This document shows, piece after piece, positions 39,456 through 41,814 of a stretch of 64,000 nt of DNA. A program made the translations under genes and the position numbers. The stretch's first letter is position 1; each line of letters opens with the position of its first letter. Location of the stretch: positions 496,001 through 560,000 of the forward strand of contig JAUHZU010000002.1 of assembly GCA_030425705.1 (NCBI GenBank), written 5' to 3'. The stretch comes from Phycisphaerae bacterium (GTDB lineage Bacteria > Planctomycetota > Phycisphaerae > Phycisphaerales > Phycisphaeraceae). Under the pieces are notes generated by a model that did no database searches, was not told where the DNA came from, and saw nothing but the letters and a program-made list of their open reading frames with translations.

Positions 39456-40313
39456 ATGCGGATCAAGATGACCACTCCCCGCAACATCCTGCTCATCGCG
39501 CCTCAGGGCATGCTCGGCCGGGCGTGGCGGCTGCACCTCGAAAATGTGAGAGGGGTCCGCCCCCGTTTCGGGAAACGCCCCGACTTCGACATCACCGACC
39601 CCGCATCGGTCCGTCGGCACGTCACGCCGGACGTCGACATCGTCATCAACTGCTGCGCTTACACGAACGTCGACGCCGCGGAAGAACACGAAGACGAGGC
39701 GACCGCGGTCAACGGCACGGGTGTCGGCGACCTTGCGGACGCCTGTCGTGACGCGGGGGCGCTGCTGGCGCACTACTCGACCGACTATGTCTTCAACGGC
39801 GAGGCAACCGCGCCCTACCCCGTCGACGCGCCGATCGAGCCGGTCAACGCCTATGGCCGGTCCAAGGCCGTGGGCGAACGGCTTATTCGCGAAAGCGGCT
39901 GCGACCACCTCATCCTCCGCACGAGCTGGCTCTACGCAGCGTGGGGTAAGAACTTCGTCAACACCATCACGAAGTACGCGAAAGAGCGCGACTCACTCAA
40001 GGTCGTCGACGACCAGCGCGGCCGACCCACGAGCTGCCCGCACCTCGCCGCAACATCCATGAAGCTCATCGACGCCGACGCCCGTGGCACGTTCCACGTC
40101 ACCGACGGCGGCGCATGCACCTGGTACGACTTCGCCAAGGTGATCGCCGGCCACGCCAACCCGAGTTGCCAGGTGAACCCCTGCACCAGCGCCGAGTACC
40201 CCCTCCCCGCGAAACGCCCGGGCTACAGCGTGCTCGACCTCTCTGCGACCGAGGCGTCGGTCGGCCAGATGCCACCATGGGAGGAGAACCTGAAGGCCGT
40301 TTTGACAGGATGA
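39456..40313 (+). CDS. rfbD: dTDP-4-dehydrorhamnose reductase
   Basis: 285 residues (ATG 39456; 39468 also possible). Rossmann start ILLIAPQGMLGRAW, then INCCAYTNVDAAEEHEDEA, the catalytic STDYVFNGEA, YGRSKAVGERLI (YxxxK) and LRTSWLYAAWGKNFVNTI. It reduces dTDP-4-keto-L-rhamnose with NAD(P)H. The last codons GTT TTG ACA GGA TGA lie inside the left inverted repeat of the adjacent GxxExxY unit, so the stop is supplied by the inserted element and the original C-terminus may have been replaced. The N-terminal segment ENVRGVRPRFGKRPDF is longer than usual. Confidence 0.88.
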   Translation: MRIKMTTPRNILLIAPQGMLGRAWRLHLENVRGVRPRFGKRPDFDITDPASVRRHVTPDVDIVINCCAYTNVDAAEEHEDEATAVNGTGVGDLADACRDAGALLAHYSTDYVFNGEATAPYPVDAPIEPVNAYGRSKAVGERLIRESGCDHLILRTSWLYAAWGKNFVNTITKYAKERDSLKVVDDQRGRPTSCPHLAATSMKLIDADARGTFHVTDGGACTWYDFAKVIAGHANPSCQVNPCTSAEYPLPAKRPGYSVLDLSATEASVGQMPPWEENLKAVLTG

Positions 40314-40775
40314 CAGGATTTGCAGGATGTACAGGGTCGAAGATGGATGACCAAGCACTCACGCGAAAAATCATCGGGTGTGCGTATCAGGTTCACAACA
40401 CTCTGGCAGCGGGTTTCTGGAGTCTGTGTACCAGCGTGCCTTGGCGATCGAGTTAGCAAAGCTCGGTCTGTCAGGCATCATGGAAAAGAAGGTGCCGGTC
40501 TGCTACGACGGCCAGGTGATAGGAGATTTCAAGGCAGACCTGGTCATCGAAGAGCGTGTCATCGTGGAACTCAAAGCGATCGAGACACTCCATCAAGCCC
40601 ACGAAGTCCAACTCGTGAACTACCTGGTCGCCACCGGTATCCAAGTCGGCTTGCTCATCAACTTCGGCCCCGAACGCGTCGAAGTCAAACGAAAGTATCG
40701 GGACTACAAGCCACCCGAAAACAAAGCCTAGTCTGTATCCTGTCCATCCTGAAAATCCTGCCACCCTGTCAAAAC
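40299..40775. mobile_element. Inverted-repeat-bounded GxxExxY unit (candidate mobile element)
   Basis: Left repeat 40299-40336 (begins GTTTTGACAGG) and the reverse complement of 40738-40775 match at 33 of 38 positions. Each arm is built of spaced CAGGAT-like heptamers. Between them is a single frameshifted GxxExxY gene. The unit separates rfbD and rfbB, overlaps the last codons of rfbD and ends 13 bp before the rfbB start. Base composition is lower in GC than the flanking genes. I see no target-site duplication with certainty. Confidence 0.65.
40343..40731 (+). pseudogene. GxxExxY family protein (PD-(D/E)XK nuclease-like), frameshifted
   Basis: The frame starting at ATG 40343 encodes MDDQALTRKIIGCAYQVHNT and then AAGFWSL before terminating at 40456. 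A second frame from about 40396 resumes the family pattern as GSGFLESVYQRALAIELAK and continues to 40731 with KVPVCYDGQVIGDFKADLVI, VELKAIETLHQAHEVQLVNY and LINFGPERVEVKRKY. A single missing base in the GCGGGTTT stretch near 40412 explains the change. The nuclease-like core (D-x-x-I...ELKA) is intact downstream. It may be a true pseudogene, a sequencing error, or two pieces of a recoded gene. Function of the family is unknown to me. Confidence 0.75.
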
Positions 40776-40788
40776 ATAAAGAAACCCC

Positions 40789-41814
40789 ATGAACATCCTA
40801 CTCACCGGCGGCAGCGGCTTTATCGGCTCCAACTTCGTCCGGCTCGTCCTGCGCGAACGGCCCGACTACCGCGTCACCAACCTCGACTGCCTGACCTACT
40901 CCGGCAACCCGGAGAACCTCGCCGACATCGAGGACGACGACCGCTACACCTTCGTCCACGGCAACATCTGCGACCTCGAGCTGTGCACGAAGCTCATGCA
41001 CGACTGTGACGCGGTGGTGCACATGGCCGCCGAGTCGCACGTGGACCGGTCGATCATCGACGCTCGGCCGTTTGTCGAGTCCAACGTGCTGGGCACGCAG
41101 ACCCTGCTGGACGCGCTCCGCCGGGCCGACCCCGGCGGGACCAAGCGGTTCGTGCACGTCTCGACAGACGAGGTGTTCGGCGACCTGCCGCTGGATAAGC
41201 CCGAGGAGCTGTTCAGCGAGACGACGCCCTACGCTCCGTCGAGCCCGTACTCCGCGAGCAAGGCCGGCAGCGACATGGTCGCGCGGGCCTACGCCCATAC
41301 GTTCGGCATGCCGGTGATGATCACCAACTGCTCGAACAACCACGGGCCCTACCAGTTCCCCGAAAAAGTCATCCCGCTGTTCGTCACCAACCTCATCGAG
41401 GGCAAGAAGGTCCCTCTGTACGGCGACGGGAAGAACGTCCGCGACTGGCTGCACGTCGAGGACCACTGCGAGGCGGTCTTGACCGTGCTGGAGAAGGGCA
41501 CGCCCGGCGAGCAATACTGCATCGGCGGCAACAACGAACGCAGCAACCTCGAACTCACCCACGCGATCCTCGAACTCATGGGCAAGGGTGAAGACATGAT
41601 CGAGCCCGTCACCGACCGGCTCGGCCACGACCGGCGGTACGCGATCGACGCCACAAAGATCAAGCGCGACCTCGGCTGGGAGCCGACCCGCAGCGCCTGG
41701 CCGCAGGCGCTCGAACACACCGTGAAGTGGTACGTGGACCACCCGCGGTGGTGGCAGAACGTCAAGAGCGGGGCGTACCGGGAGTACTACGCGAAGCAGT
41801 ACGGGACGCGTTGA
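40789..41814 (+). CDS. rfbB: dTDP-glucose 4,6-dehydratase
   Basis: 341 residues. NAD-binding NILLTGGSGFIGSNFVRLV, substrate motif HMAAESHVDRSI, catalytic STDEVFGDLP (Thr/Asp/Glu) and YSASKAGSDMVARAYAHT (YxxxK), NCSNNHGPYQFPEKVIPLFV, and the tail RRYAIDATKIKRDLGWEPTR. It forms dTDP-4-keto-6-deoxy-D-glucose. It is last in the cluster and may depend on readthrough from the inserted unit upstream, whose right repeat ends 13 bp before the start. Confidence 0.95.
   Translation: MNILLTGGSGFIGSNFVRLVLRERPDYRVTNLDCLTYSGNPENLADIEDDDRYTFVHGNICDLELCTKLMHDCDAVVHMAAESHVDRSIIDARPFVESNVLGTQTLLDALRRADPGGTKRFVHVSTDEVFGDLPLDKPEELFSETTPYAPSSPYSASKAGSDMVARAYAHTFGMPVMITNCSNNHGPYQFPEKVIPLFVTNLIEGKKVPLYGDGKNVRDWLHVEDHCEAVLTVLEKGTPGEQYCIGGNNERSNLELTHAILELMGKGEDMIEPVTDRLGHDRRYAIDATKIKRDLGWEPTRSAWPQALEHTVKWYVDHPRWWQNVKSGAYREYYAKQYGTR

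Follow-up and report, generated by a model that had tools for sequence, protein, structure and literature searches.

We describe a pair of inverted short-repeat arrays around a single GxxExxY gene, which is best read as a decayed copy of an autonomous mobile element that also has miniature derivatives (probability roughly 0.7; its cutting and movement are what we infer). With their matching protein and repeat sequences, such elements are apparently a widespread and undescribed kind of mobile DNA. The unit lies between rmlD and rmlB in a stretch of 64,000 nucleotides from a Phycisphaerae bacterium (hereafter the window), with the following layout.

39456–40313, + strand: rmlD/rfbD (TIGR01214, 1.7e-80); last codons and TGA within the left arm
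40299–40335, + strand: left arm, GTTTTGACAGGATGACAGGATTTGCAGGATGTACAGG; four CAGGAT-like units 8–9 bp apart
40344–40404, + strand: GxxExxY gene, N-terminal part, in the frame of ATG 40344; 1-nt frameshift near 40404
40405–40731, + strand: GxxExxY (PDDEXK_3) gene, remainder (TIGR04256, 3.4e-35; PF13366, 6e-34); profile match begins at position 15 or 16
40739–40775, − strand: right arm; inverted copy of the left, likewise with four units 8–9 bp apart
40789–41814, + strand: rmlB/rfbB (TIGR01181, 1.2e-138)

The Unit between rmlD and rmlB

A repeat search of the window returned arms of 37 nt (40299–40335 and 40739–40775) that are 89% complementary and separated by 403 nt. This is the repeat that a preliminary description of the sequence had matched at 33 of 38 positions and had seen to consist of CAGGAT-like units, of which each arm holds four. 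We also confirmed its account of the borders: the left arm overlaps the end of rmlD and supplies its TGA stop (40311–40313), and 13 bp separate the end of the right arm from the ATG of rmlB at 40789. Upstream and downstream sequences at this locus reach a complementarity score of 27, against a maximum of 14.5 among 438 shifted windows, and the repeat pattern has 17 matches in the genome, against none for the reversed control. Together with the identity of the arms, these two comparisons rule out a chance inverted repeat.

The GxxExxY gene that had been described between the arms is present but not intact. Its C-terminal piece lies far above the curated cut-offs (120.9 bits against 35 for TIGR04256; 117.3 against 22 for PF13366). 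The mechanical listing of ORFs gives the larger piece as a GTG ORF at 40378–40731, which matches the TIGR04256 profile only from position 15 onward; the N-terminus that it lacks is encoded in a different frame, from ATG 40344. One base is absent near 40404 relative to the gene of a congener (G001), which is open throughout and belongs to an intact unit at the same rmlD–rmlB junction. The frameshift in the window may be an assembly error. Searches of Pfam and NCBIfam at E 0.01 with the 40378–40728 piece found no family other than GxxExxY and no transposase of a known class. In Pfam, the one gene enclosed by the arms gave a match to PF13366 and none to PF04754 (Rpn) or any other family.

The genome that contains the window (G000; 4.1 Mb, 21 contigs) has three GxxExxY genes. 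Among the matches listed, the family occurs in at least 63 of 101 relatives; in a sample of 199 genomes from across the phylum, 96 have it. As for viruses and plasmids, two GxxExxY loci lie in viral contigs and the family occurs in eight plasmid records; three plasmid regions were inspected.

A structure model of the intact G001 protein (pLDDT 92.2, pTM 0.85) found 4ic1 (SSO0001) in a structure search with an E of 1.3e-4; the alignment of the two has a middling Z of 9.6 and an rmsd of 4.8 over 105 residues. The nearest structures are the Cas4-like SSO0001, lambda exonuclease and Holliday-junction resolvases. A comparison of 55 sequences shows ten invariant residues, including E27, D66, E76, K78 and Q90, and we take the conserved acidic, ExK and Q residues to be the PD-(D/E)XK motif. 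The modelled fold and the conserved residues thus agree in predicting a PD-(D/E)XK nuclease fold, and the earlier assignment of the gene as PD-(D/E)XK-like is upheld by the model and its structure matches. The dN/dS ratio was 0.04–0.23 in 11 of 13 pairs; a very close pair gave 0.56, and for the remaining pair no ratio could be calculated. Most pairs had a dS above 1. Judged from these coding sequences, the protein is under purifying selection, with its function kept.

Inverted Arms Recur around GxxExxY Genes

The preliminary description had named recurrence of repeats at the borders of GxxExxY genes as a test of mobility, and such recurrence was seen in three sets of loci. In the order, 108 of 113 genes exceed the 14.5 that was the highest score among the 438 shifted windows. 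These are the better-scoring genes among the matches listed (two of 115 were dropped for short flanks, and some thirty lower-scoring listed places were left out). Their mean flank complementarity is 26.3, against 10.2 for flanks paired across loci (highest 38) and 9.3 for shifted windows. The cross-phylum set consisted of the best 80 of 580 loci, less five with short flanks; 47 of these 75, including one archaeal locus, exceed the highest of 257 shifted windows, and 28 fail this strict control. In a further set, 69 of 88 loci exceed the 95th percentile of cross-locus pairs (one of 89 was dropped for the same reason). Absence of the repeats from other GxxExxY loci is ruled out by the order and cross-phylum counts.

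A divergent, low-scoring branch of the family goes against this trend. Of ten lower-scoring places that were read, eight belong to this branch, in family f2 (L492–L496, L498–L500), and none of the eight has arms (scores 8–12); the other two are a decayed copy scoring 11.5 and a copy split in two pieces scoring 40. The armless branch may be a resident, domesticated relative that is no longer mobile.

At least two units were found in each arm of 153 of 188 elements, and three plus three was the commonest arrangement (86). Arms usually hold three to four units, mostly spaced 8–10 bp, and the units follow the pattern C-[AG]-C-N-[AG]-A-[GT], of which CAGGAT is a variant. The unit sequence is the same in both arms of one element and differs between elements. 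At five loci (L141, L115, L111, L114 and L110), the inverted repeat does not stop at the unit array but extends outward on either side through a GCTTCGCT-like stretch. These stretches are perhaps an outer palindrome that received the element.

Gene-Less Palindromes Outnumber the Genes

The G000 genome also contains five short gene-less palindromes with CAGGAT arms, on contigs 7, 9, 12 and 14 (two on 14). As single-stranded DNA, all five fold better than 200 of 200 shuffles (z −3.2 to −7.6). Because of these palindromes, the window unit appears, at the sequence level, to be the gene-carrying form of a palindrome that occurs without the gene as well. A three-unit pattern with 9-bp spacing had matches in 52 of 61 genomes, giving 1326 arms against 28 for the reversed pattern, split about equally between strands. 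Gene-less palindromes outnumber GxxExxY genes: G030 has the most arms of any genome (334) and five genes, and G019 has 117 arms and one gene.

The numbers of genes and arms are correlated across genomes (Spearman 0.67). The median is 14 arms in the 38 genomes with a gene and one arm (up to 15) in the 23 genomes without, the latter being those outside the matches listed. The type of arm follows the type of gene as well. Three or more arms with T-ending units occur in 8 of 12 genomes in which a T-type gene was read, against 2 of 49 others (Fisher 6.6e-6), in a table that was compiled by hand and counts genes only where their flanks were read; G013 was scored as T-type because its locus L100 falls in the T clade. 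Two genomes, G010 and G004, have T-type arms without a T-type gene among the loci read, and these exceptions speak against a strict rule. Several draft contigs end in or near palindromes (contigs 7, 17, 42, 47, 55 and 56 of G010; 12, 17, 18, 30 and 38 of G012). As draft contigs often end in this way, assemblies may undercount palindromes.

Occupancy of Sites and Nesting of Palindromes

Next, we compared the rmlD–rmlB junction among relatives. An rmlD match was found in 40 of 51 genomes of the family, and of 30 rmlD loci that were read, 28 have rmlB directly downstream. The gap is 19–60 bp in 14 of these 28, which rules out that the unit is always present. Element arms occur at nine junctions and are of five unit types, judged by eye: two hold a CAGGAT unit with its gene, and seven hold gene-less palindromes of the CACAAAG-like (three), CACAGAT/CGCAGAT (one), CGCAGAG-like (one) and CGCCAAG (two) types. 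Inside the CGCAGAG-like palindrome, another palindrome is nested. The remaining five junctions have a longer gap that was assigned to no element type. Within a single genus (g10), G013 has a gap of 19 bp and G040 and G045 have CGCCAAG palindromes. The rmlD–rmlB gap of G020 (L487) contains a tandem TAACTGA array.

A second site, in genus g37, is also variably occupied. G070 and G062 have one element in common, G058 has another, and the site is empty in G054, where the flanks are 86% and 82% identical and 28 bp apart; in G074, the two flanks are on separate contigs. Occupied and empty junctions, of the kind that had been named as the comparison to make, thus exist at both sites. These empty sites are between species, so that loss and gain look alike.

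Palindromes are also found inside other palindromes. In G010, 11 of 29 palindrome pairs enclose a second inverted pair, in many cases with units of a different type; this count comes from 20 loci chosen for their opposite arms, and the 29 pairs include the inner ones. An unselected 781-kb sample of G030 contained 107 arms against six for the reversed pattern. Here, an inner pair was present in 4 of 34 palindromes and in 0.74% of comparable windows, those with their centres outside long ORFs (p 1.2e-4); a stricter three-unit rule leaves three such palindromes. The centres of 25 of the 34 palindromes lie in the 12% of the sample that is outside long ORFs. The nesting suggests that palindrome centres are insertion targets, which would explain how one site can host different elements. 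Two loci (L287 and L288) are identical 85-bp copies within unrelated flanks. In G030, a short palindrome, CCGGTCGCTTGCGACCGG, or a near copy of it recurs inside CACAGAG and CGCCAAG palindromes (L355, L368 and L373). No target-site duplication was detected in 169 elements, where the only signal was a weak TT..AA that is also explained by the inverted ends, and no intermediate or fresh insertion was seen among the loci.

Protein and Repeat Sequences Covary

To relate the units to their proteins, we placed unit bases on protein trees. The last base of the unit changes once on a tree of 182 proteins (143 labelled: 21 T and 122 G; shuffles 15–21) and once on a tree of 270 proteins (201 labelled, 38 T; shuffles 29–38). 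CAGGAT elements fall outside the 7-mer pattern; L001, L097, L049, L073 and L087 were labelled as T-ending by hand for the trees, and base 5 of these elements was read by alignment of 3' ends. In the T clade, 36 of 38 proteins have Asn in QLxNYL, and residues near the C-terminus are absent. As the gene and its arms are linked, co-inheritance alone yields some correlation. The last-base pattern could arise in this way, although the repeat would then have kept that base across a deep clade.

Base 5 is more telling, as it changes often across elements. In the first set, proteins with Thr at a helix-1 site (L-T-x-x-I-I-G) have G at base 5 in 72 cases and A in one, and proteins without Thr have A in 31 and G in 17; rows gapped at this column (9 with G, 8 with A) are left out. 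When the rule was fixed beforehand and applied to new loci, Thr went with G in all 39 cases, residues other than Thr with A in 13, and Ser with G in six (Fisher 8.6e-9), leaving out 28 of 86 rows that lacked a readable unit. The helix-1 residue was located by its alignment column in the first set and by its distance from the G-x-G motif in the new loci, which may overlap the cross-phylum set in a few species. The window and G001 proteins have Thr at this site, and their CAGGAT units, counted from the 3' end, have G. On a weakly supported tree, base 5 gave a median p of 0.0002 for the best of 145 tests, with only two contrasts on well-supported branches. For unit bases 2 and 4 against single residues, nothing survived 204 and 224 tests, respectively. 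Binding of its own units by the GxxExxY protein is supported by this covariation, as far as sequences can indicate binding.

Comparison with Known Systems

The closest system in logic is REPIN/RAYT, in which many extragenic, gene-less inverted-repeat palindromes accompany one or a few genes for the presumed mover, according to the part of the account available (PMC3116915). The elements found here likewise form high-copy inverted extragenic doublets, with up to 334 arms per genome. Unlike REPIN/RAYT, their partner is not a tyrosine (HUH) transposase but a protein with a predicted PD-(D/E)XK fold, their arms are arrays of three to four units that vary by element, and the gene lies inside the palindrome; as a whole, they fall outside REPIN/RAYT. 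In enzyme fold and in the repeated use of one operon junction, the closest system is Rpn/YhgA-like (PF04754). Rpn is a recombination-linked PD-(D/E)XK nuclease with little sequence specificity for RpnA, and two separate rpnC insertions at panC–panD have been inferred; the available part of that account describes no flanking arrays (PMC5350276). GxxExxY, unlike Rpn, is a different Pfam family and does not belong to this system. Insertion sequences and MITEs share the inverted ends around one gene and the short gene-less relatives, and differ from our elements, which have iterated-unit ends, no transposase of a known class and no target-site duplication that we could see.

The window unit also resembles the 23S rRNA intervening sequence, which the available part of PMC4990558 describes as a selfish element of small size (428 nt in Coxiella) that carries a single small ORF. 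The intervening sequence differs in its S23/four-helix-bundle protein, its mostly heptad units, its location in rRNA and its excision by RNase III. We take S23 and TIGR02436 to be one family. TIGR02436 (four-helix-bundle) loci of relatives (L307–L336) lie between inverted arrays of short units such as GGGTATC, AGTGATG and AGTTAAA, and G000 has five TIGR02436 genes (e.g., G000:C16:322846–323169). We scored 29 of the 30 loci, one having short flanks; the mean is 22.0 against 9.6 and 9.9 for controls, and 10 of 29 exceed the highest control of 24. Outside the subscription journals, our literature search found, among the matches listed, no account that links GxxExxY with the repeats described here.

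Alternative Explanations

The TIGR02436 loci bear on an unlikely alternative, namely that another enzyme moves the palindromes and that the GxxExxY gene, as cargo or as a parasite, came to lie between arms that were already there, as in the copying between preexisting repeats considered earlier. An unrelated family occupies the same kind of place, two of its loci (L322 and L317) having GxxExxY-like units, although most of the 29 loci have different units of ~7 bp. The far greater number of gene-less palindromes, the insertions accepted at palindrome centres and the arms in some genomes without a detected gene would all fit; the covariation of the unit with the GxxExxY protein and the scarcity of arms where the gene is lacking (median 1 against 14) would not.

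Somewhat less probable still is a resident regulatory or RNA-processing module, in which GxxExxY would bind the repeats as DNA or as mRNA hairpins and the palindromes would be immobile sites. The strong hairpins, the purifying selection on the protein and the existence of an armless, apparently resident branch agree with this, and TAACTGA direct repeats reported from Beggiatoaceae have been proposed to be regulatory (available part of PMC4679880). Immobile sites are hard to reconcile with a junction whose occupancy and unit type vary among related species, with the nesting of unlike palindromes or with identical 85-bp copies in unrelated flanks. We consider it very improbable that GxxExxY is a nuclease-fold defence or toxin gene spread by ordinary horizontal transfer amid functionally meaningless repeats. 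Rpn, another PD-(D/E)XK family, is reported as an anti-phage toxin (available part of PMC10327210), but the arms here flank nearly all better-scoring genes and covary with the protein, and most copies lack the gene altogether.

A Candidate Mobile Element and Its Significance

The preferred reading is the mobile element. Each element would consist of two inverted arms of short units around one GxxExxY gene for a protein of predicted PD-(D/E)XK fold. The protein would bind units of its own type and presumably nick or cut DNA at or near them, and the element, or a copy of it, would thereby reach a new intergenic position, in many cases the tip of a palindrome. Gene-less palindromes would be miniature derivatives mobilised in trans. 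For insertion, the element would favour intergenic DNA and the midpoints of palindromes already present; targeting of the tips of hairpins or cruciforms may be the reason. Copies would then decay in place, as the window unit appears to have done. The recurrent arms and variable junctions support the original proposal of a minimal mobile unit with the nuclease-like protein as its sole gene, its movement being presumed.

A bolder version, to which we give rather less than even odds, is that GxxExxY proteins move DNA in a way that would form a class of its own. Such a protein would be a small Cas4/RecB-like nuclease with a residue-to-base code, and it would cut hairpins or cruciforms and insert palindromes into palindrome tips. 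Its ~7-bp unit, present three to four times per arm, would be read via helix 1, with Thr for G and Ala or Ser for A at base 5. Copying would keep the units of an element alike, so that protein and repeat would change together. If this is true, specificity would be readable and perhaps programmable.

Bacterial mobile elements are classed by the chemistry of their enzymes: DDE, HUH, serine, tyrosine and reverse transcriptase. A single-gene element with a PD-(D/E)XK-fold protein, iterated-unit ends and abundant gene-less derivatives would lie outside all of these classes. The covariation of protein and repeat leads to predictions that are open to a simple binding assay. The mobile-element reading would give the GxxExxY family a function and a very common kind of intergenic palindrome an origin.
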